DNA of 33,228 nt from a virus, in IMG/VR virus record IMGVR_UViG_3300006028_000024, positions 1 through 33,228 of that record; one strand, given 5' to 3'. The notes below the pieces were generated by a model, which was not told where the DNA came from, ran no database searches, and saw only the letters and a list, made by a program, of their open reading frames with translations. This document shows, piece after piece, positions 1,255-31,754 of this stretch. The position numbers and the translations under genes were made by a program. Numbering within the stretch: position 1 is the stretch's first letter; each line of letters starts with the position of its first letter.

Positions 1255-1599
1255 ATGCAACACATCACTCAGATCACTCCATTAACTGACACGTCCATGT
1301 ATAACGAACCTCGATGTTTCGCGATCCATCCCAAGCGTAGGTCCTACGCGTACGGTCTGTATTGGCAGCTGCGCGGACGAGACTTGTTGAGAGAAGGGAT
1401 GTCTTTGGAAGAGATTGCCTCTCGAACAGAGTGGTGGTATCAAGGCTGTATAGCAATGTGGAATGACGAAGATGAGGACGAGCAGCAAATGCAGATGCTA
1501 GAGTGGAAGTACGAACGTAAGGTGAGAGAGATGCTAGGGTATCGTTACAGTACAGACGAGTTTGGATGCGAGTGGGAAGTGTACGTAGAGGACCACTAG
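1255..1599 (+). CDS. hypothetical acidic protein
   Basis: 114 residues counted from the ATG at 1255, preceded by AGGAGG at 1243-1248; an upstream in-frame ATG at 1222 has no such site. The middle reads like a short helical motif (GMSLEEIASRTEWWYQG), reminiscent of a helix-turn-helix. It is followed by a strongly acidic stretch (WNDEDEDEQQ) and a charged C-terminus ending in an acidic YVEDH. No known family is recognised. Tight spacing (11 nt) to the next gene, with AGGAGG-like GGAGGG between, places it in the operon with the membrane proteins and the FtsK-like ATPase. Confidence 0.6.
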   Translation: MQHITQITPLTDTSMYNEPRCFAIHPKRRSYAYGLYWQLRGRDLLREGMSLEEIASRTEWWYQGCIAMWNDEDEDEQQMQMLEWKYERKVREMLGYRYSTDEFGCEWEVYVEDH

Positions 1600-1610
1600 A
1601 GGAGGGTAGG

Positions 1611-2516
1611 ATGGCAGACGTAGTTCGATATTGTGAATTGCCAACGTGCGGTGCAGTACTTCCTAAGAGTCATCAAGGGAAGTACTGCAAGGGTACGGAC
1701 CACTACCAAGCACATATGGCACACAAGCGTCAAGCAACCCAGCAGAGGCAAGCTGACGAGCGTCGGATGGTAGTCGCGTCAAAAACGACTACTACCACGA
1801 CTGAACATTTTACTTCTGTGGAAGAGCGTAAGGCTGTTGAACGTAGCGAAATGTTCTCTCAAGACGCCCAAGAACAGTTACGTGATGCACGTACTGAGGC
1901 AGAGAAGGAAGGTCCGGCTGCATCCGTAGAGAGGTGGATGCTGCATTGGGGGCCGTTAGTCGCTGTCGTACTGATTGTGGCAGCCGTTGGCGTAGACATT
2001 ACTGTGTTTCTGATAGGGAAGGATACTAACGTACTCTCTATGGCCGCTGTGTTAGGTATGACGATTGCCTTTGAAGGCATTCTGATGCTACAAACACTAG
2101 CAGTACGTCGGTTGAGATACCAGATTGCCATTGCAGCTACAGAGTCAAAACCGATTTTAGAAGGGCAAATGTGGTGGGCCGCTATCAGTTGGTTTGCCCT
2201 TGCGGTTATCTCTGCCATTGCACAGTTCGGAGCGCTGACGGGAGCTAGTACAACTGTGATGTTCTCCGTCATCGGTTTGATCGTAGCCGTTAGGGCGGTA
2301 GGTACAACCGCAGGAGACTTTATCATTGCGTTAGGGATGCCCATTGAGGTGAAGACACCAGCAATGGTAGCAGCCAACCTTAAGCAAGAAGCGAACGATC
2401 TAAGGGAGTTGGCTGGAGCGTACAAAGAGAAGTTACTTGCCGAGAGGGACGTTCGCCAGTTGTTCCTAGAGATGCAGCAGCCAAGAGTTGAAAGTATCAC
2501 AGAGGAGGGCCAATAA
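1611..2516 (+). CDS. zinc-motif, four-TM membrane protein
   Basis: 301 residues from the ATG at 1611 (GGAGGG at 1601-1606; the longer in-frame start at 1566 lies inside the preceding gene). N-terminal Cys/His motif (C8-x4-C13, then C27 and nearby His) suggests a small metal-binding knuckle. A charged Gln/Arg/Glu-rich region (about 38-105) follows. Then come four hydrophobic segments, roughly 110-132, 140-162, 182-203 and 207-232. The C-terminal tail is charged and probably helical. It is followed one base later by a second polytopic membrane protein and then an FtsK-like ATPase. This order recalls the small membrane proteins beside TraB/FtsK translocases of actinobacterial elements, but I see no named homologue. 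Confidence 0.7.
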   Translation: MADVVRYCELPTCGAVLPKSHQGKYCKGTDHYQAHMAHKRQATQQRQADERRMVVASKTTTTTTEHFTSVEERKAVERSEMFSQDAQEQLRDARTEAEKEGPAASVERWMLHWGPLVAVVLIVAAVGVDITVFLIGKDTNVLSMAAVLGMTIAFEGILMLQTLAVRRLRYQIAIAATESKPILEGQMWWAAISWFALAVISAIAQFGALTGASTTVMFSVIGLIVAVRAVGTTAGDFIIALGMPIEVKTPAMVAANLKQEANDLRELAGAYKEKLLAERDVRQLFLEMQQPRVESITEEGQ

Positions 2517-3038
2517 ATGTCAGCAGAACATGTAACACATCGCAGACAGCAGAGTCCAATACTGTTATTGGCTGTCGGCCTCTTCTGTGCAGGTATGTGG
2601 ATCGGGATAGTACTATTGCAATTGCAAACCTCAATGGCACTGATGCTATCCGGTAAAGAGGTAACAGTACAAACGGCTAATTGGGGAGTGTTTGTACTGT
2701 TCTGGGAACTAGTAACGGGTCAACTATACGGTGCTTTATTAGTCGCAGTCACATGGGCGTACATGGTGGAGTTGGTTACGCTGATCTTCGCGGTAGCACT
2801 GAAGTTTGCTATGGAAGCAGCTTCTCAATCACACCAGAAACTTCCGAAGTGGTGGGTGATAGCCTCTATAGTATTACTGCTGTACAATGCTTACTCTGAC
2901 TTTTCCTACGGTACCTTGTATGTAGGTAGTTGGGTAGGTAACCTTGCGTTCTCGCTTGTATGCGGTATGGGAGTGTGTTTCCTTTTACCAATTGCTTTTA
3001 GGCTTATTGAAGGTGCCATAGACGGCTGGAAGAGGTAA
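2517..3038 (+). CDS. polytopic membrane protein
   Basis: 173 residues starting directly after the previous stop (TAA then ATG), with GAGGAGGGC just upstream. Hydrophobic segments lie at about 16-40, 53-75, 76-100, 113-130 and 138-165, joined by short loops; a short basic N-terminus (HRRQQ) precedes the first. No catalytic motif is seen and no family is recognised. It ends two bases before the FtsK-like gene, so it likely acts with that ATPase at the membrane. Confidence 0.65.
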   Translation: MSAEHVTHRRQQSPILLLAVGLFCAGMWIGIVLLQLQTSMALMLSGKEVTVQTANWGVFVLFWELVTGQLYGALLVAVTWAYMVELVTLIFAVALKFAMEAASQSHQKLPKWWVIASIVLLLYNAYSDFSYGTLYVGSWVGNLAFSLVCGMGVCFLLPIAFRLIEGAIDGWKR

Positions 3039-3040
3039 CT

Positions 3041-4696
3041 ATGGATAAGTTCAGAACGCAAGTTACAACCGGTCTAACGACTGGCTTAACTGTCTTTGGT
3101 TTTGCGGCTGGAGCGGGACATCTACCGCTCCCAGCTGCAATTGTCATCGGAATAGGATCTGGCATAGTAGCAGGTGCCGGTAGTACCGATGTGCTGCAAC
3201 TGGTTGGAGTAAAAGACACTGAGTACGATCCGACTACTTGGGGGTCTCAAAAAGATACTCTCGACGATACTAGTACACCTGCTGTTGTTGGTAAGAAACG
3301 TAGTTTACTGGACCGAGCATTTGGCAGGTTTCCCATTGGGGAAGAGAGTGTAATAACTAGCGATAATGTGCAGTCGCTGCGAGACATGGGGGTAGCTCCG
3401 AACGATCTCTTGCCGACAAGGAGTCCAGCGTTCAGACAGATGTGGAAGCAAGTCAGTGAGGAGCAAGAGATACTGGGGTATGACGGCTGTGACTGGATTA
3501 GAGCGAAGCCAGAGCACACACTGTCTATTGGTATCATCGGTCGTCCAGGGCAGGGTAAGTCTACACTGCTTCGATACTTAGTTGCCTGCGCTCTGAAGAG
3601 AGGAGCAGAGGTTAGAGGTTGGGACATGCATTGTAGTGTAGCTGCTGACTTGAGCGATGTGCTCAACATTTACGATGACCCTGATGATATTGTGACAGAT
3701 GCTCAATGGATCATCGATACGCTGACAGCTCGCAAGGCACTGTACAAGACAGTACAGAGAAAAGAGTCCAGAGCACAGAGTCAGTGGGAGGCTCTACCAG
3801 AGCTGCTCTATATCATCGATGAGTTCACGGCGCTCATGACTGCGCTCAAAAGAAACAAGAAGGCCACAGAAGCAGTACAAGAAGCAGTGCTACGACTTGT
3901 GACAGAGGGCAGGAAGTTTAAGATGAGGTGCATCATTGCAGGGCAGTCGCTGCCAGCATCTCTGTTCGATGGCAGCGGAGCTCGGGACAACCTACAGACT
4001 CGTTATGCGTTCGGATCGAGGGATGCACAGGCTCGTATGTTAGGCATAGATGAGGATGCGATCGAGAACCTGCTCCCACTGATCGAGGGAGAAGAGGCTG
4101 CCGGCTATGCAGTCCTCGATGGAGGTCCTCTGAGAAAAGCTGTGATTATATCCGTACCTCTCACTACGGTCGAGGACATCAGAGCACTCGCACAGAGATA
4201 TACTGCATCAACTAGAGTGCAGAGAGTGCCTCAATTAGAGCCCAGTAATGTAGAGCGCTCAAGAGAGTCCAGAGTAGAGATCCCAGAGCAAGTCGCTGCA
4301 CTCAATTACGATGCAGTGATCAAGAGCAGATATCCAGTGCAGAAATTAGAGTCCAGCGCAGTAAAACAGAGCGATCTAAGATCGAGAGCAGTGATGGAGT
4401 GGATCGAACCAGAGCCAGAGATCACGAACGATGTGTCAGAGTGGTTCTACTCTAGAGTCGAGAGGGATCAGTACTCTGAGGTAGCTGCGTGGGAGTACTG
4501 GGTTGACTACTCTAAACGCTGTCACAGTGCGGGTATACAGCCACAGGCAAGTACCGCTTTTGGTTCAGAGTTGAAGAGGTTGATGAAGGCAGAGTTCGGA
4601 CTTACATCAACTACTCCATCTGGATCCAAGCCGGATGGCTCTAGAGGTCAGAGGACTGCTTACGTTGGAGCGAAGTTAGTGGATCGAGGTGAGTGA
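3041..4696 (+). CDS. FtsK/HerA-type DNA-translocase ATPase with C-terminal winged-helix-like domain
   Basis: 551 residues. Residues 10-50 are hydrophobic and Gly/Ala-rich, able to form one or two membrane hairpins. The motor domain has a Walker A GRPGQGKST (about 167-175), a Walker B LLYIIDEFTAL (about 256-266) and a downstream CIIAGQSLPASLF, the FtsK/SpoIIIE/TraB pattern. The last 70 residues (from about 481) have the layout WxYWxxY...C...G...FGxxLKR, then a Gly/Arg-rich turn and Y-V-G. This resembles the winged helix ending D5-type primases and is analogous in position to FtsK gamma. It forms an operon with two membrane proteins and is followed by a terminator. A separate TerL exists, so this is not the packaging motor; segregation or conjugative-type transfer is more likely. 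Confidence 0.85.
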   Translation: MDKFRTQVTTGLTTGLTVFGFAAGAGHLPLPAAIVIGIGSGIVAGAGSTDVLQLVGVKDTEYDPTTWGSQKDTLDDTSTPAVVGKKRSLLDRAFGRFPIGEESVITSDNVQSLRDMGVAPNDLLPTRSPAFRQMWKQVSEEQEILGYDGCDWIRAKPEHTLSIGIIGRPGQGKSTLLRYLVACALKRGAEVRGWDMHCSVAADLSDVLNIYDDPDDIVTDAQWIIDTLTARKALYKTVQRKESRAQSQWEALPELLYIIDEFTALMTALKRNKKATEAVQEAVLRLVTEGRKFKMRCIIAGQSLPASLFDGSGARDNLQTRYAFGSRDAQARMLGIDEDAIENLLPLIEGEEAAGYAVLDGGPLRKAVIISVPLTTVEDIRALAQRYTASTRVQRVPQLEPSNVERSRESRVEIPEQVAALNYDAVIKSRYPVQKLESSAVKQSDLRSRAVMEWIEPEPEITNDVSEWFYSRVERDQYSEVAAWEYWVDYSKRCHSAGIQPQASTAFGSELKRLMKAEFGLTSTTPSGSKPDGSRGQRTAYVGAKLVDRGE

Positions 4697-6281: not shown

Positions 6282-8330
6282 CTAGATCGTGATATCGAGT
6301 GAAAATGTCAATGTTTCCGAGTTGGTATGCGTATGGTTGTACAGACCTCTTGCAATAAGCGTGCCGCTGTTTGCTATCAACGATGCGGCACCTCCAAAGA
6401 AACCGAACTCTTGTACATTGATGTTGATGGCATCCGCTTGCGACATAAACATGGTGATGATAGCTTCACCTACGTTCGCTCCAGCAGAGTACCCCGCAAT
6501 CCGCTTGCGAAACACCTCATTAGCCAATGACGTATCTGTCACAGCTGGCGCTGTAGTCCCAGTTCCAATCGCTCCGTACGTGACAAGCGATGAGATAGTA
6601 CCTTTGATCAGCGCATCCCGGATGAGATTGAGGCCTGCATTCGTAATGGTAACGTTAACTGTGGTACCCCCAGTACTTCCACCACCACCGCCTCCACCAC
6701 TACCTGCACCACCAGGAAGTATAGTTGGCCACTTATTGGAACTGCCAATATAGAAGATCGCGATATTCGAGATACCGTTATCTAAACAGACCATGATCTT
6801 CTCATTGATGGTAACTTGGTCTGTATACACGTAGGTCTTACCACCTGTGGACCACATCATCTCGCCTGAGGTCTTCTCTCTGATAGCACCACTAAAGCCA
6901 GTCCAACCGGAGGCATCACTAAAACCGAAGGCACCAACATTCTCACTGACACTGCCAAAAGTCGTGTCATCGTTGTTGATGTAATACGCCTCGCTTGTTA
7001 CGGCAACCACAAGTTGGTTGATGTTGGTAATCTGTGTCTTCATGAACGCAATAACTTGCGCCATCCACACAGATGGAGCCATAGCGTAGTCTGGGCCTGG
7101 ACTTGTTGAGCTGCCAGTGAGAGTATCAAAGAAGTGGTCGTACGCTTGTACATTAAAGTAGTCCACCGGAAGGTTATTGAGGTCAGACCAGTTCCACTTA
7201 ATACTACCCTGCGCTGTGAGAGTCGGGCCGTCAACCATGAGTTTGAGGCCAGCCGCGTGAAGTGAGTTACCCAACTGTGTAATGATCGTCTTGAGCTGTG
7301 TCCAGGTCGTCGCAGATGCTGTAGTTGACCACCCTCCGTGTAACTCCATATCGAGGTCAATGCCAGTAAACCCATTTTGCGTACAGAAAGTAGTCAGTGT
7401 ATTACAGAAGTTTCCGAGTAGCGTTGAGTTATTGGCTAGCGATGAAATGGCGGTACGTGATCCATCAGGCCACTCAGCTCCTGACACTGTGATAAATTGC
7501 TGGTTCGAGTGTGTTTTCACAGTTGCAAAGTTCGTTGAACTTGCGCCTGCTGGACCCCAACTGCCACCGTTGAAGACTTCAAACGCTACAGTTTCTTCAA
7601 TAAGGACACCAGCAGTCCCAAGATGGCCATTACCTACGTACCAATACTCTGGTCGGATGATATTTAGCGGAGTAAGCGTCGTGATGTTGGTCATCGCATC
7701 TGTAGACGCTGGGAAGATGTAACCTCCAAGTGTGGAGAGATTAGTCGTCGTGTTGTTAGTAGCCGTAAAACTGTCAGTGAGAATGCTAGTAGCAGCTGTA
7801 CCTACACGTTCGATCAAGCCATATTGACCATACCACGCCGCTGGAGAGATGGAAACAGTATACCCCCACAGTGATGGCTCGGTTGTTCCGTCAAGCCAAT
7901 AGCGGATCTGTACTTGAGTCCCTGTTACAGCTACTCTCACCCAAGCAGCAGTACCCGCCGTAACTGAAACAGTACCCCCACTTGAGTAGTCAAACTCTGT
8001 ACCCCCAGAAAAAGCAGTTACATAGTAGTGACCTGTCTGGTTGATGCCAGCAGCAATATTGTCATTAGCAGTGACATATCGGAAGAAGAAACCGAACAGG
8101 TCGGAGTTTGAGCCTGGCGTAAAGCGAGCGAGAAAGTTGAAGTCTTGGGAAACGCCAGTACCTAGCAACAACTTGCCGTAAGTAAGGCTATCGTAAGCGT
8201 AGTGGAGTTGGTTGGTGCTGACACTGTAGTTCGCTGTAGTCCCAGCGTTCACAACCCACACCTGACCATCACTAGATGTTCCTGGACCGGACGCTACGAT
8301 CCTACTAAAGTTATCTGTACCTAATTGCAT
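6282..8330 (-). CDS. multi-domain tail protein with GH18 glycosidase domain
   Basis: 682 residues. About 1-200: beta-sandwich, lectin/LamG-like in pattern (AWVRVAVTGTQVQIRYWLDG). About 220-530: GH18-like barrel, with the active-site strand FTGIDLDMELHG (catalytic Glu about residue 329) and the later strand VDYFNVQAYDHFF expected of GH18. The first Asp of the DGxDxDxE motif is Thr here; the three core acidic residues remain. About 538-556: poly-Gly/Ser linker. About 557-682: fibre-tip-like domain. Known GH18 members cleave chitin or beta-1,4-GlcNAc bonds. Here it probably degrades host envelope or exopolysaccharide glycans during adsorption, or cleaves wall glycans. Start supported by TAGGAG. 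Confidence 0.8.
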   Translation of the reverse strand: MQLGTDNFSRIVASGPGTSSDGQVWVVNAGTTANYSVSTNQLHYAYDSLTYGKLLLGTGVSQDFNFLARFTPGSNSDLFGFFFRYVTANDNIAAGINQTGHYYVTAFSGGTEFDYSSGGTVSVTAGTAAWVRVAVTGTQVQIRYWLDGTTEPSLWGYTVSISPAAWYGQYGLIERVGTAATSILTDSFTATNNTTTNLSTLGGYIFPASTDAMTNITTLTPLNIIRPEYWYVGNGHLGTAGVLIEETVAFEVFNGGSWGPAGASSTNFATVKTHSNQQFITVSGAEWPDGSRTAISSLANNSTLLGNFCNTLTTFCTQNGFTGIDLDMELHGGWSTTASATTWTQLKTIITQLGNSLHAAGLKLMVDGPTLTAQGSIKWNWSDLNNLPVDYFNVQAYDHFFDTLTGSSTSPGPDYAMAPSVWMAQVIAFMKTQITNINQLVVAVTSEAYYINNDDTTFGSVSENVGAFGFSDASGWTGFSGAIREKTSGEMMWSTGGKTYVYTDQVTINEKIMVCLDNGISNIAIFYIGSSNKWPTILPGGAGSGGGGGGGSTGGTTVNVTITNAGLNLIRDALIKGTISSLVTYGAIGTGTTAPAVTDTSLANEVFRKRIAGYSAGANVGEAIITMFMSQADAININVQEFGFFGGAASLIANSGTLIARGLYNHTHTNSETLTFSLDITI

Positions 8331-17559: not shown

Positions 17560-17757
17560 CTATGGTTGCTGTGTCTGAGTAGTAGCGTGATGATGATGCG
17601 CGTGGTGAGCACCCGGATGACTAGAGTGATGGGCATGATGTTCATGATGGCCATGATGGTGTGCAGCATGAGTTACTTTGTGATGATGGTGCATAACATG
17701 ATGCTTGTGCGAACCGTGATGGTGACCACCTCCGTGATGATGATGTGTAGCAGCCAT
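17560..17757 (-). CDS. histidine-rich small protein (31 His in 65 residues)
   Basis: 65 residues, 48% histidine, arranged as short runs of 2-4 His separated by Gly, Ala, Ser, Lys and Thr; the C-terminal eight residues (ATTQTQQP) are His-free. AAGGAG lies 11 nt before the ATG. It fits between the adaptor and stopper genes with only 6- and 10-nt gaps, so it is expressed in the head-completion operon. A metal-chelating or pH-responsive structural or assembly protein is conceivable; no family is known to me. The opposite-strand Met-rich frame is a shadow. Confidence 0.75.
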   Translation of the reverse strand: MAATHHHHGGGHHHGSHKHHVMHHHHKVTHAAHHHGHHEHHAHHSSHPGAHHAHHHHATTQTQQP

Positions 17758-24962: not shown

Positions 24963-25036
<74 letters not shown>

Positions 25037-25113: not shown

Positions 25114-26046
25114 ATGTCACAACTTACCGAAGCCATCGACACCTACATGTATGTGATCGCTGGCCTATCAGAGCACACTCAGATCTCCTACCGCGACAAA
25201 TTAGCCGTGTTCTCAGAGTTTTGTAGCGCTCACACTCTCGACCTCACCGACATCACCCCAAAAGTCTTCAGAACCTTCATCACCTTTGTCTCTAGTCGAG
25301 CCAACCCACGCACAGGGGGGACTATCAGAGGTCATACTATCTCCAGCTATGGCCGTGTGATCAAAGTCTTCTTGCGTTGGGTGTCCACGTATGAGGAGTA
25401 CGCTGGTTGTATCAAGCCAAGTACGTTACGGTCATTGGCGGTTCCTAAACTAGAGGAGCTGACAAAGCCCATCCTCACCCTTGACGAGATCCACAGATTG
25501 TATGAAGCGTGTCAGCAAGAGTGCACCAAACAACTCGCTACCAGGGACACCGCTATCCTCTCACTCCTGCTTGACACGGGTGTGAGGGCATCGGAACTAT
25601 GCGGCTTAACGCTTGTCAATGTCCACCTAGACCAACGAGACTCCTACATCCTTGTGTACGGCAAAGGCAAAAAAGAGCGTGAGATAGGTCTGGGGACTAG
25701 AGCACGTCTCGATATACACAGGTATATCCGTCAGTACCGCAAATACGCCAAACCAGAGGAAGTGGTAGTGCTAGGTCGGTCTGGAGAGCCACTCACCCGC
25801 AATGGTTTAGACCAAATCCTCTACCGTCTCAAAGACTGGGCAAGTGTTACCACTGAAGGTGGGGCTCATTTGTTTAGGCACACCTACGCCACTTTGTACT
25901 TATCGAATGGAGGGGACGTCTACAAGCTCTCAAGGCTCATGGGCCACACACACATTACCACCACAGAAGGCTATGTCAAAAGCATGCGACAGCGGGACGC
26001 TCGTAAAGGACATTCTGTGCTCGATGACCTCTCCAGTGCACACTAG
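25114..26046 (+). CDS. int: tyrosine recombinase / phage integrase
   Basis: 310 residues. N-terminal SAM-like core-binding domain (about 5-105), then the catalytic domain with Arg158 (DTGVRASEL), Lys in GKGKKERE (184-190), His252-x-x-Arg255 (HLFRHTYA), His278 (LMGH) and nucleophile Tyr287 (TTEGYVKS). All six-position signatures are present, so activity is expected. XerC/D-like. The nearby tRNA-like sequence is a likely attachment site; with phage genes on both sides it would be attP rather than an integrated junction. Start after AAAGAGGGAACCA. Confidence 0.9.
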   Translation: MSQLTEAIDTYMYVIAGLSEHTQISYRDKLAVFSEFCSAHTLDLTDITPKVFRTFITFVSSRANPRTGGTIRGHTISSYGRVIKVFLRWVSTYEEYAGCIKPSTLRSLAVPKLEELTKPILTLDEIHRLYEACQQECTKQLATRDTAILSLLLDTGVRASELCGLTLVNVHLDQRDSYILVYGKGKKEREIGLGTRARLDIHRYIRQYRKYAKPEEVVVLGRSGEPLTRNGLDQILYRLKDWASVTTEGGAHLFRHTYATLYLSNGGDVYKLSRLMGHTHITTTEGYVKSMRQRDARKGHSVLDDLSSAH

Positions 26047-27880: not shown

Positions 27881-28162
27881 ATGGTACCAGATGATATGCT
27901 GCACGATTCAGCAGACGATCCTACTGAGGGGGCAAACTCGGATCGATTCGCCTTAATCGATGTACGCAGGTTTTATATTGCGCGGTACTGGTACAGCGAG
28001 GGGATCGATTTGGCTTTCGCCGATGTTCCAATTCCGGCAATTCAACAGCGAGCGTTGAGGTATGCACAGGGCAGTCTAGAGAACATGGGAATAGCCGACA
28101 TAGAGCACATCAAATGGCTTCTTGAGAAGCGTCGAGAGTTCTTCATGACTATCCTGGACTGA
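27881..28162 (+). CDS. hypothetical protein
   Basis: 93 residues after TAAGGAG. An acidic N-terminus (about 1-20) is followed by a compact helical domain (IDVRRFYIARYWYSEGIDLA, then AIQQRALRYAQGSLENMG and IEHIKWLLEKRREFF). No motif I can name. It has its own promoter and leader dyad and is followed by a terminator-like hairpin, so it is a single-gene unit. Might be a regulator given small size and position before the replication region, but this is speculation. Confidence 0.55.
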   Translation: MVPDDMLHDSADDPTEGANSDRFALIDVRRFYIARYWYSEGIDLAFADVPIPAIQQRALRYAQGSLENMGIADIEHIKWLLEKRREFFMTILD

Positions 28163-28196: not shown

Positions 28197-28339
28197 TCCA
28201 CTCTAATTCTGGGGGGTGTGTGTCCACGCCAGCAGATACTCTCCTACCCCTCGGAAATTCCTCAGCAGTAAATTTCAGTTTTCCTCTTTTCTGTGGGGTA
28301 TCAGAGAATAGTAGTATAGAGTTGCGTGGTTAACATACG

Positions 28340-28459
28340 CTTGCTAAAAAAGATAAAAAATATAAACAATTTTAACATAAAGTGGACGTTTCCTAATACC
28401 ATATATATATATCGCCTTTTGGGGGGGATCAGTTTATATTTTTTATCTTTTTTAGCAAG
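28340..28459. repeat. perfect 28-bp inverted repeat around an AT/G-rich core; origin or partition-site candidate
   Basis: Arms 28340-28367 and 28432-28459 are exact reverse complements (28 of 28 bases), each beginning CTTGCTAAAAAAG when read inward. The 64-bp core holds (AT)6 at 28401-28412 and a G7 tract at 28421-28427. The rest of 28163-28599 is AT-rich and non-coding. It lies next to a ribbon-helix-helix gene and the PrimPol-D5 replicase, consistent with an origin, a partition centromere or a secondary-structure regulatory site. Confidence 0.75.
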
Positions 28460-28523
28460 TGATCTTCACCCACTTAATTTATGTGGTCCCCTGTAACTGC
28501 ATTAAAACTACCAGGGTAAACCA

Positions 28524-28566
28524 TTGATTTTTGATGCAAAGTCAATTATAATTATAGTATAGAGTT
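28524..28566 (+). promoter_or_regulatory. promoter of RHH gene, copy A of a duplicated promoter/operator
   Basis: TTGATT at 28524-28529 and TATAAT at 28547-28552 with a 17-bp spacer. Flanking CCATTGATTT and the downstream ATAATTATAGTATAGA are shared with the promoter at 31694. The half-site AGTATAGAGTT (28556-28566) recurs at 28313-28323. Likely autoregulated by a small DNA-binding protein. Confidence 0.75.
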
Positions 28567-28599: not shown

Positions 28600-28782
28600 A
28601 TGACTCAGAACGGTACGCATAAGGGGGGGCGTAAGTCTCTTCCAATCGACGAGAAAGCTACTACTGCGAACTGGACCATCACACCCAGCTTTAGAGACGC
28701 AGTCGCAGTCGCAGCTAAGAGGGATGGCTTCGTGAGCACCAGTGAGTGGGTAAGGCAGAAACTGCTCCCACATCTCAAGTAA
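28600..28782 (+). CDS. ribbon-helix-helix (CopG/Arc-like) DNA-binding protein
   Basis: 60 residues after CAGGAGAAGGA. Basic N-terminal arm (KGGRKSL), a beta strand ATTANWTITPS, helix FRDAVAVAAKRDG, turn VSTSEW and helix VRQKLLPHL: the RHH layout. CopG/Arc-like proteins repress promoters or bind partition sites as dimers. Flanked by the 28-bp inverted repeat upstream and a strong terminator downstream, it is well placed to act on either the repeat or the promoter at 28524. Confidence 0.75.
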   Translation: MTQNGTHKGGRKSLPIDEKATTANWTITPSFRDAVAVAAKRDGFVSTSEWVRQKLLPHLK

Positions 28783-28979: not shown

Positions 28980-29009
28980 ATGGGGGACACCTATTATGGT
29001 GGACACTAA
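28980..29009 (+). CDS. possible 9-codon leader ORF overlapping the primase start
   Basis: ATG at 28980 sits 9 nt after AGGAGGG (28964-28970), the best Shine-Dalgarno of the region, and encodes MGDTYYGGH, stopping at 29007-29009. The primase ATG (28996) is inside this mini-ORF and has only a weak GGGGGA upstream. Translational coupling or leader control of primase is possible. Confidence 0.4.
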   Translation: MGDTYYGGH

Positions 29010-31638
29010 CACCACAGATTTATTCGAGTACGAAGCCTCAGACAATGCCTCTACTACTAACCACACTGGCTCGGCACTTGGGCCAACGACTACATCGACT
29101 AAAAGCACGCTAGACCTAGCGAGGGAATACAAAACCAAATACGGAATGTCAGTGATTCCTGTTCCTCGTCAATCCAAGAACCCTGACCTTGGTGGATGGC
29201 AGAACCTACGCATTACAGAAGAGGAGCTGCCGAAGTACTTCGATGGATCACCTCAAAACATCAGTTGGTTGCCAGGAGAGCCAAGCAATGGCCTCGTAGA
29301 CATAGACATCGATAGCTACGAAGCTTTGATGATCGCTGAGATATGTTGCCCGAAAACTCACCTCATCTACGGGCGTAAGGGAAAACCTCGCTCCCACAGA
29401 ATTGTAAGAAGTGTACCACTCCCGGACTCTATCATAGGGAAGAGCGTTTTGAAACTCGAAGACCCCTCGATCAAGGGTAAGGTCGACGAACACGGGAGGA
29501 GCGCCTGCATCGTTGAGCTACGCACTACTAGGTGCCATACTGTGCTGCCAGGAAGCACTCACGAGGATACGGGCGAAAACATTGAGTGGGATGAAGAAGG
29601 AACGCCTACCTCATATGCACCGGACTATCTCATCCACAGCTTGAAAATATGGGCAGCAGCTGCTTTGCTTGGTCGGCACATGCCTGGAAAGGGATCTCGA
29701 CAGGACGCTACCCTAGCTATCTGTGGAGGGCTCTTCCGTCTGTGGCAGGACAAGGACAAGGTGAAGGAGTTCCTTAGCCTGGTGTTGAAGGTTTCCGGCG
29801 ATGAAGAGTACGATGCGCGGATGCAGTGCGTAAACACCACAGAAAGGCAGATCTTTGAGGGGAGGAACTATACTGGGTGGAAGACTCTCACAGAGTACAT
29901 CGATAAGAGGGTTGTGCAGCGTGTCTGTAACTGGATAGGTGACTCTATCGAGATGGAAGAGACCAATCGCAATATGAATCGAGATGCCGACCCAGCTGAG
30001 GACACCAAGTGTTCAGATATTGGGAACGCAGCTCGTTTTGCTGACATGTGGTGTAATGAGCTGAAGTGGGTTCCTGCTTGGAAGTGTTGGATGTTCTATA
30101 ACGGGATACGTTGGGAACACGTAGATGAAGCCTTCGTCATAGGAAAGTCCAGAGACGTAGTGTACAGCCTCTTCGACGATGCGCGAGACCTGAATATGCA
30201 AAAACAGGGGAGCGGTGGTCTCTTGTGGAAGTGGGCAGATAAGTCCTGTGCGGCTGAGCGATTGAGTGCAATGGTGCGTATTGCGAAGGCTGATATGTCC
30301 ATCAGTAGTGAAGTGTTCGACGACGCTGAACGTACACGCTACAGATTGAACGTTCGTAATGGCACTATCAATCTGAAAACTGGCAAACTAGAGCCTCACA
30401 ACCCACTGGACTATACTACGTTAGTAGCGCCCGTTACGTACGATGAAGATGCGCCCTATCCTCTACGGTGGACTAACCATCTAAAGTGGTGTTTCAAGTA
30501 CGATAGAAATGACAAGTCTACCTGGGACGTCTACTGGTACATACACAAAATACTTGCGCTATCAATTACAGGAGACGTCTCCCACAGAGTGATACCTGTT
30601 CAGCACGGAGACGGCAGCAACGGTAAAAGCGTTATCATTGGTGTAATGTCCCGAGAACTCGGTCCTTACGCACACAAAATGAAAAAGGAAACTCTGCTGC
30701 AAAAGCAATACGCCGATGGTGGTGGTGATGCTTCGCCGGACATAATAAAGTTGAAAGGTAAACGCTTTGTGTATGCGAGTGAGACTAACGAGGGTGAGAC
30801 TATGGACGTCTCAAAAGTAAAGGACTGGGCTTCCGGTAGCGAGAAACTCTCCGGCAGAGCGCTATATCAAGACTCTGAAGAGTTCTGGCCACAGTTCATT
30901 TTGTGGATTACCTCTAACCACAAGTTGAGAATACCAGAAACAAAACCGGCCATTTGGAATCGGTTAAGACTGATACATTACAGTAACACTATTGAAACAG
31001 ACAGGATGAACACAAAACTTGCCGAGGAGATTTTCAACGAGGAGTCTAGTGGTATCCTTAACTGGCTCATCGAAGGGGTGCGGTGGTTGTTGGAAGAAGG
31101 TATCAAAGAACCGAGTTCAGTTATCGAGAGCACGCTAGAGTATCGGGATGAGCAAGACGTTTTCAAGCGAAGCTACCTATACATCTTCGATATAAGCGAC
31201 AAATCCGCACACACGCCCCTTAAGGATCTGTATCGGCATTATGAAACACACTGGTCTGGCGTCTCTCGCGGCAAAGTTATGCTAAAGAAGGACTTTACGG
31301 CGAAACTAGTAGAGATGGGTTTCGTCCGAGACAAGCTCAAGGGTACAAGTCTCGATGGGCATAGAGGTATCAAGATAAAACTCCCAGAGGAGGAGAAGCC
31401 AGAAACTCTATACGACAAAGAAGCAAGCCCCAGACTAGTTTCACTCCTCAGAAGGTTGTACCACAACGCGGTAAGCACAGATGACGAACTACGAGTAGTG
31501 GACCTGGAGTACAAAGAGGACATTGCAACCCTGAACGTAACCGGTTGGACGATCATACGCACCGGTAGAGGATACGTGCTCGACACCGACAAACTGCCCG
31601 ACATGTCTGAAGAGGATCGTAAACACATCACTGGGTAG
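28996..31638 (+). CDS. PrimPol-D5 primase-helicase
   Basis: 880 residues. An AEP/PrimPol domain (about 30-220): SVIPVPRQSKNP, LVDIDIDS (acidic pair, about 100-106) and SHRIV (His, about 134). A D5_N-type linker (about 330-480) follows. The SF3-like helicase has Walker A GDGSNGKS (about 538-545), Walker B-like RFVYASETNEG (about 590-600) and sensor ILWITSNHKLRIPE, then an R-finger-like NRLRLI. The C-terminal part (about 730-800) is winged-helix-like. Known members prime and unwind at phage/plasmid origins. It is the only replication protein found here, so replication likely relies on a host polymerase. Confidence 0.9.
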   Translation: MVDTNTTDLFEYEASDNASTTNHTGSALGPTTTSTKSTLDLAREYKTKYGMSVIPVPRQSKNPDLGGWQNLRITEEELPKYFDGSPQNISWLPGEPSNGLVDIDIDSYEALMIAEICCPKTHLIYGRKGKPRSHRIVRSVPLPDSIIGKSVLKLEDPSIKGKVDEHGRSACIVELRTTRCHTVLPGSTHEDTGENIEWDEEGTPTSYAPDYLIHSLKIWAAAALLGRHMPGKGSRQDATLAICGGLFRLWQDKDKVKEFLSLVLKVSGDEEYDARMQCVNTTERQIFEGRNYTGWKTLTEYIDKRVVQRVCNWIGDSIEMEETNRNMNRDADPAEDTKCSDIGNAARFADMWCNELKWVPAWKCWMFYNGIRWEHVDEAFVIGKSRDVVYSLFDDARDLNMQKQGSGGLLWKWADKSCAAERLSAMVRIAKADMSISSEVFDDAERTRYRLNVRNGTINLKTGKLEPHNPLDYTTLVAPVTYDEDAPYPLRWTNHLKWCFKYDRNDKSTWDVYWYIHKILALSITGDVSHRVIPVQHGDGSNGKSVIIGVMSRELGPYAHKMKKETLLQKQYADGGGDASPDIIKLKGKRFVYASETNEGETMDVSKVKDWASGSEKLSGRALYQDSEEFWPQFILWITSNHKLRIPETKPAIWNRLRLIHYSNTIETDRMNTKLAEEIFNEESSGILNWLIEGVRWLLEEGIKEPSSVIESTLEYRDEQDVFKRSYLYIFDISDKSAHTPLKDLYRHYETHWSGVSRGKVMLKKDFTAKLVEMGFVRDKLKGTSLDGHRGIKIKLPEEEKPETLYDKEASPRLVSLLRRLYHNAVSTDDELRVVDLEYKEDIATLNVTGWTIIRTGRGYVLDTDKLPDMSEEDRKHITG

Positions 31639-31693
31639 GGCACCTAGCGTTAAGCAATTTCGAGCAAGATTGAGAAAGATCTGGGGAAATCCA

Positions 31694-31731
31694 TTGATTT
31701 ATAGTGTAAGGTATACTATAATTATAGTATA
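31694..31731 (+). promoter_or_regulatory. promoter of the HTH gene, copy B of the duplicated promoter, with perfect 20-bp palindrome
   Basis: TTGATT at 31694-31699, 17-bp spacer, TATAAT at 31717-31722. TATACTATAATTATAGTATA at 31712-31731 is a perfect 20-bp palindrome over the -10. The 28524 promoter has the same boxes and spacing but only the right half-palindrome. Confidence 0.8.
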
Positions 31732-31754
31732 GAAGATAGAAAGGAGGTAGAGTA

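Follow-up and report, generated by a model that had tools for sequence, protein, structure and literature searches.

The window analysed here, positions 1 to 33,228 of the virus record IMGVR_UViG_3300006028_000024, encodes a head and tail module of siphovirus type, in which PHROGs identified the terminase, portal, major head protein and tape measure, together with a tyrosine integrase similar to XerC and a tRNA; the replication region extends between 28 and 31.6 kb. The tRNA lies on the minus strand at 24963-25035, 79 bp from the integrase start; it scored 54 bits and was missed by ARAGORN. By eye it reads as a tRNA-Phe (GAA) whose acceptor stem pairs poorly, and it is probably the phage attachment site, carrying the 3′ portion of a tRNA gene from the host. 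Elsewhere in the record, an FtsK/SpoIIIE-like ATPase (1566-4696) follows two membrane-protein genes, and the FtsK-like protein of a related phage is 81% identical to it; this region is reminiscent of the transfer modules of actinobacterial integrative elements, placed here within a phage genome. In a tail-region protein on the minus strand (6282-8330), Pfam recognizes a domain of glycosyl hydrolase family 18 (1e-8), and a 65-aa ORF, close to half of which is histidine, is located between the head-tail genes (17560-17757, minus strand).

The replication region contains a gap of 437 bp between the ORF at 27881-28162 and the ORF at 28600-28782, in agreement with the non-coding stretch of that length described in the initial annotation. 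The features in and downstream of this gap are compiled in Table 1.

Table 1 Features of the replication region of the window.
Feature	Position	Strand	Description
Element 5′ of the dyad	28279-28323	+	GAGAATAGTAGTATAGAG at its end; possible promoter or operator
Dyad, whole	28340-28459		120 bases
Dyad, left arm	28340-28367	+	CTTGC-TAAAAAAGA-TAAAAAATA-TAAAC
Left-arm unit 1	28345-28353		TAAAAAAGA
Left-arm unit 2	28354-28362		TAAAAAATA
Left-arm partial unit	28363-28367		TAAAC
Dyad, spacer	28368-28431		64 nt; (AT)6 at 28401-28412, G7 at 28421-28427
Dyad, right arm	28432-28459	-	exact reverse complement of the left arm
50-bp element	28514-28563	+	promoter/operator-like, TTGATT-17-TATAAT; precedes the RHH-primase pair
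Probable ribbon-helix-helix (RHH) protein	28600-28782	+	60 aa; model helices at residues 29-41 and 47-58
PrimPol + D5/SF3 helicase	28996-31638	+	P4-family primase, 880 aa; presumed initiator

The large gene had been read as a PrimPol-D5 primase-helicase from its translation, and this assignment is firm. The protein matches the Pfam families Prim-Pol (5e-9) and D5_N (5e-19) and the NCBIfam family TIGR01613 ('phage/plasmid primase, P4 family') with 174 bits against a cut-off of 108.7, and Foldseek aligned its structural model, for which 17 sequences were used, with solved structures of viral PrimPol-D5 helicases (E = 5e-23). Residues 742-790 at its C-terminal end are modelled as helix-helix-strand-strand with a pLDDT of about 60-82 and lack a match to the Pox_D5 family, a prediction compatible, at moderate confidence, with a winged helix. 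The RHH assignment of the small upstream protein is plausible, though weakly supported: the modelled helices fit this fold and NikR accounts for three of its four Foldseek matches, all weak and non-significant, but a family match was found neither in Pfam nor in NCBIfam. Judged from the model, the protein is likely an RHH protein, and it likely regulates the replication genes in the manner of CopG/ORF56. Single-protein scans of viral and genome contigs returned no close relatives of either the RHH protein or the window primase.

Both promoter-like elements have counterparts. The 50-bp element that precedes the gene pair recurs with 80% identity at 31684-31733 (TTGATT-17-TATAATTATAGTATAGA), ahead of the next HTH gene, and the two copies likely constitute a shared operator. 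Positions 28279-28320 of the element 5′ of the dyad are 79% identical over 42 nt to positions 4218-4259 (minus strand) of locus L199 in the nearest relative of the window, contig IMGVR_UViG_3300005537_000017 (loci L199/L200), where the counterpart precedes the first gene of the replication region.

The dyad itself is a perfect inverted repeat, as had been noted, with 28-nt arms complementary at 28 of 28 positions, and the (AT)6 and G7 tracts that had been assigned to its core are both present, inside the spacer. It is the longest close inverted repeat of the 33.2-kb record, with a score of 28 compared with 14 for the runner-up. The judgement that such a structure is very unlikely to arise by chance was confirmed with random sequences from Markov-1, -2 and -3 models and from a 33-kb model of the local AT-rich composition (60 runs each), in which no inverted repeat was longer than 15 nt in any run. 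Folded as DNA, the dyad attains -27.9 kcal/mol versus a shuffle mean of -9.3 (z = -7.9). Each arm is built from a 9-bp unit in tandem (lag-9 repeat score of 11, P = 0.001 against shuffles of the arm), and the units of the left arm return in the right arm in opposite orientation; the dyad is therefore more than a hairpin. Its iterons consist of A and T only, whereas those of its relatives contain G/C, and this low complexity may inflate the apparent periodicity. The GC skew, including that at third codon positions, changes sign near 28 kb, a signal confounded with gene direction.

This organization resembles several described origins. In the crenarchaeal plasmid pRN1, the minimal replicon has three parts: two genes, for a CopG-like repressor and a PrimPol-SF3 helicase, and a stem-loop of 100 nt (stem 21 nt, loop 58 nt). 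The stem-loop is required for replication, remains functional when relocated and resembles one in phage BIP-1 (PMC4234260). In the window, from a bacterial virus, a probable RHH/CopG-type gene likewise precedes the gene of a PrimPol-SF3 helicase, and the dyad has similar dimensions (28-nt stem, 64-nt loop). A C-terminal winged helix of the initiator also belongs to the pRN1 type, and residues 742-790 of the window primase are a candidate for it. However, in pRN1 the stem-loop follows the replicase gene and has, by its published description, no iterons (PMC4234260), whereas the dyad of the window precedes the RHH-primase pair. Iterons are present in the second group: the PICI/SaPI origins of Pri-Rep initiators consist of an AT-rich region with a set of iterons on either side (PMC6092414), and the related helicase Cch2 of SCCmec binds direct repeats downstream of its own gene (PMC7581432). 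In the window, likewise, two 9-bp iteron arrays flank the (AT)6-containing spacer, but PICI origins are positioned immediately 3′ of rep, and the dyad lies 5′ of the gene pair, with iterons of A/T only. The window combines a gene pair and dimensions like those of pRN1 with PICI-like iterons. A third parallel is the annotated rep_origin of Lactobacillus phage A2 (32208-32717 of NC_004112), in which oppositely oriented repeats likewise surround a TATA-rich stretch next to a P4-type primase; in contrast to the window, it is downstream of the primase and forms a longer, less regular region with 12-bp GGGAGGATGA-type repeats. The gene order of the window recurs in the Thermaerobacter sp. FW80 plasmid unnamed2 (NZ_CP037897, locus L089), in which a 39-nt dyad of 9-bp GTGAACGAT iterons is followed by a small HTH gene and then by the gene of a P4-family primase. 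There, a helix-turn-helix protein takes the place of the RHH protein, the iteron sequence is unrelated, and the origin role is putative.

We surveyed D5-primase loci from distant relatives in terminase-related phages, from the records of the Thermaerobacter plasmid, a mycobacteriophage and a Lactobacillus phage, from a further 80 viral and 23 genome loci, and from loci found with the alignment of the window primase and that of locus L092. For scanning, a three-sequence primase alignment was usable, while a seven-sequence one was too divergent. Reduction to less than 70% identity left 36 loci whose flanks were long enough. An iteron dyad, defined as an inverted repeat plus a direct repeat inside the arm, was found at most 350 bp downstream of the D5 primase in 22 of these 36 loci, compared with 28 of 428 other ORF ends (P = 6e-15), and inverted repeats with a score of at least 14 were present in the first 300 bp 3′ of the primase in 12/36 loci versus 12/438 ends of other long ORFs (P = 8e-9). 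Because the controls were other gene ends in the same loci, ordinary terminators fall in the background and not in the excess. Examples of the tandem units in the arms are ATGAATAGT, GACGGCAA, GTGAACGAT, GGCACAGAT and GATGCGAACC; the repeat period is mostly 8-10 bp, and the spacers, mostly of 20-95 nt, often contain TATATA-like runs; repeats and symmetry are kept among relatives, the sequence is not. The strongest of the surveyed dyads belongs to L092, the closest full-length relative of the window primase (34% identity), in which a 38-nt dyad of 10-bp iterons directly follows the stop codon of the primase gene. Nearly all dyads were downstream of the primase, with L089 and L199 as the only clear upstream cases. 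The layout is thus widespread beside the D5-primase family and seldom upstream of the primase gene as in the window, in which positions 31639-31754, 3′ of the primase, contain no dyad and the sole strong one is upstream. Apart from these dyads, a perfect inverted repeat of 102 nt whose arms are 44 nt apart was noticed in locus L148, at about 4.4 kb from the primase on its upstream side; it may be an assembly artefact.

These observations bear on two other functions that the dyad could have. It may act as RNA, namely as a hairpin transcribed from the element at 28279-28323 and serving as an RNase III substrate, regulatory leader or small RNA. The predicted RNA fold is indeed very stable (z = -8.2), and the conserved promoter-like element ends 17 nt ahead of the left arm. 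However, the arms pair perfectly without any G-U pair and contain 9-bp direct repeats that would be superfluous for a hairpin, a terminator T-tract 3′ of the stem is missing, Rfam returned at the dyad only chance matches to plant miRNAs far under the gathering scores, and what relatives conserve is repeats and symmetry rather than sequence. We consider an RNA function improbable.

Somewhat less improbable, though still unlikely, is that the dyad is a binding site of the RHH protein, either as operator of the replication genes or as a partition centromere. RHH proteins bind short repeats as dimers, the RHH-like gene starts 140 bp 3′ of the dyad, and a promoter-like element lies in between. That element, at 28514, begins about 55 bp beyond the end of the dyad and does not overlap it, and its recurrence at 31684-31733 makes it a likelier operator than the dyad. 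CopG-type operators, moreover, do not typically consist of two widely spaced inverted arrays, and the dyads of the survey adjoin the primase directly, with no need for an RHH gene. Both roles had been suggested in the initial annotation; the centromere finds no counterpart in a ParA-type partition ATPase among the proteins scanned, and nothing ties the RHH protein to the dyad repeats.

The nearest relative of the window is similar to it beside the integrase and in the FtsK-like gene, with protein identities of 78-97%. Its D5 primase, encoded at 68-2548 of L199 (minus strand), belongs to a lineage other than that of the window, and no part of the window dyad is present in L199/L200. The relative instead has its own dyad, GTTGGATTAGTTGG ... 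CCAACTAATCCAAC, whose spacer includes TATATATAG. This dyad sits inside an inverted repeat of 25 nt and, as in the window, is located upstream of the primase. We read this dyad from the sequence, since its nesting caused the automatic iteron-dyad test to miss it. Primase and dyad hence differ together between the two phages, as would be expected if origin and initiator had been swapped as one unit. Upstream of its primase, L199 also encodes a 251-aa protein (3433-4185, minus strand) with a weak match to the winged-helix family Pox_D5 (E = 0.04), and the 42-bp element in common with the window lies upstream of this gene. A second iteron dyad of L199 (TATGGGCGATATGGGCGT, 56-nt AT-rich spacer) is situated at 6961-7052, between the orf68 homologue, which it closely follows, and the terminase genes. 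It may be a spare or old origin or have another function, and its distance from the primase indicates that such dyads need not all be the active origin. Another structure common to both phages is a 73-bp hairpin at 819-891 of the window (22-nt arms, 19-nt loop), upstream of a small HTH-like gene, which is 97% identical to positions 7798-7870 of L200, even though the intergenic sequences on its flanks fail to align. It was set aside as an origin candidate, having no evident iterons and being kept in the relative despite the different primase.

The absence of homologous sequence from L199/L200, together with the terminal inverted repeats, would also suit a small MITE-like insertion of 120 bp with 28-bp terminal repeats. 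Against this, the record of 33,228 bp contains no second copy of the dyad, the exact arm has 0 occurrences in 2.9 million viral contigs, and no target-site duplication was detected in the flanks; such an insertion is the least probable of the readings considered. Hardly more probable is an invertible switch with the arms as recombination sites of the XerC-like integrase (25114-26046). Perfect inverted repeats do surround a short AT-rich segment, and the nearby tyrosine recombinase is weakly similar to DNA invertases. The spacer has just 64 bp without a promoter-like match, though, the integrase is adjoined by a likely tRNA attachment site, and a switch would leave both the 9-bp repeats and the association with D5 primases unexplained. 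Lacking copies, target duplications or a promoter, both readings were rejected.

Taken as sequence evidence, these results indicate that the dyad is probably the replication origin of this temperate siphovirus. This reading is supported by the 9-bp period, which matches the dyads of most D5-primase relatives, by the enrichment of iteron dyads beside D5 primases, by the dyad that follows the L092 primase, by the such-like repeats in an equivalent position in the annotated A2 origin, by the anatomy shared with the pRN1 and PICI origins, and by the joint difference of dyad and primase between the window and L199/L200. It is weakened by the upstream position of the dyad and by its iterons of A/T only. 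The initial annotation had suggested an origin extruding as a cruciform; the origin gains from the iteron arms, the D5-primase enrichment and the published origins, whereas the cruciform does not, as the symmetry may simply reflect two opposed initiator-binding arrays and would also be a requirement of two opposed hexamers.

The observed components, that is, the dyad with its iteron build, the initiator family and the strong association between dyads and D5 primases, can be placed in a mechanism modelled on P4 alpha, SaPI Rep and pRN1. The PrimPol-D5 helicase would bind the 9-bp iterons (TAAAAAAKA), possibly via the putative winged-helix region at its C-terminus, and two hexamers would assemble face to face across the 64-bp spacer. 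ATP hydrolysis would then drive melting of the (AT)6-containing spacer, and the PrimPol domain would prime the exposed strands, yielding two forks. The RHH protein may repress the downstream promoter and in this way set the initiator level, like ORF56 in pRN1.

A pair of inverted iteron arrays, separated by a mostly AT-rich spacer and located beside the initiator gene, may represent a general design of PrimPol/D5-helicase origins, a proposition to which we give even chances. If true, the design would be common to phages, plasmids, satellites and archaeal plasmids. The pRN1 authors separate their 'stem-loop' origin from the 'iteron' origins of PICIs; under this proposition, the two would belong together. 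The window would then show that the design can also stand upstream of the initiator and that A/T-only iterons are possible, and the design would recombine as an origin-initiator cassette between otherwise similar phages. An odd palindrome of an uncultured phage thereby becomes a concrete, testable candidate origin, and a simple rule is gained, to look for origins beside D5/PrimPol primases. One common design would make origin recognition by a large initiator family directly testable.
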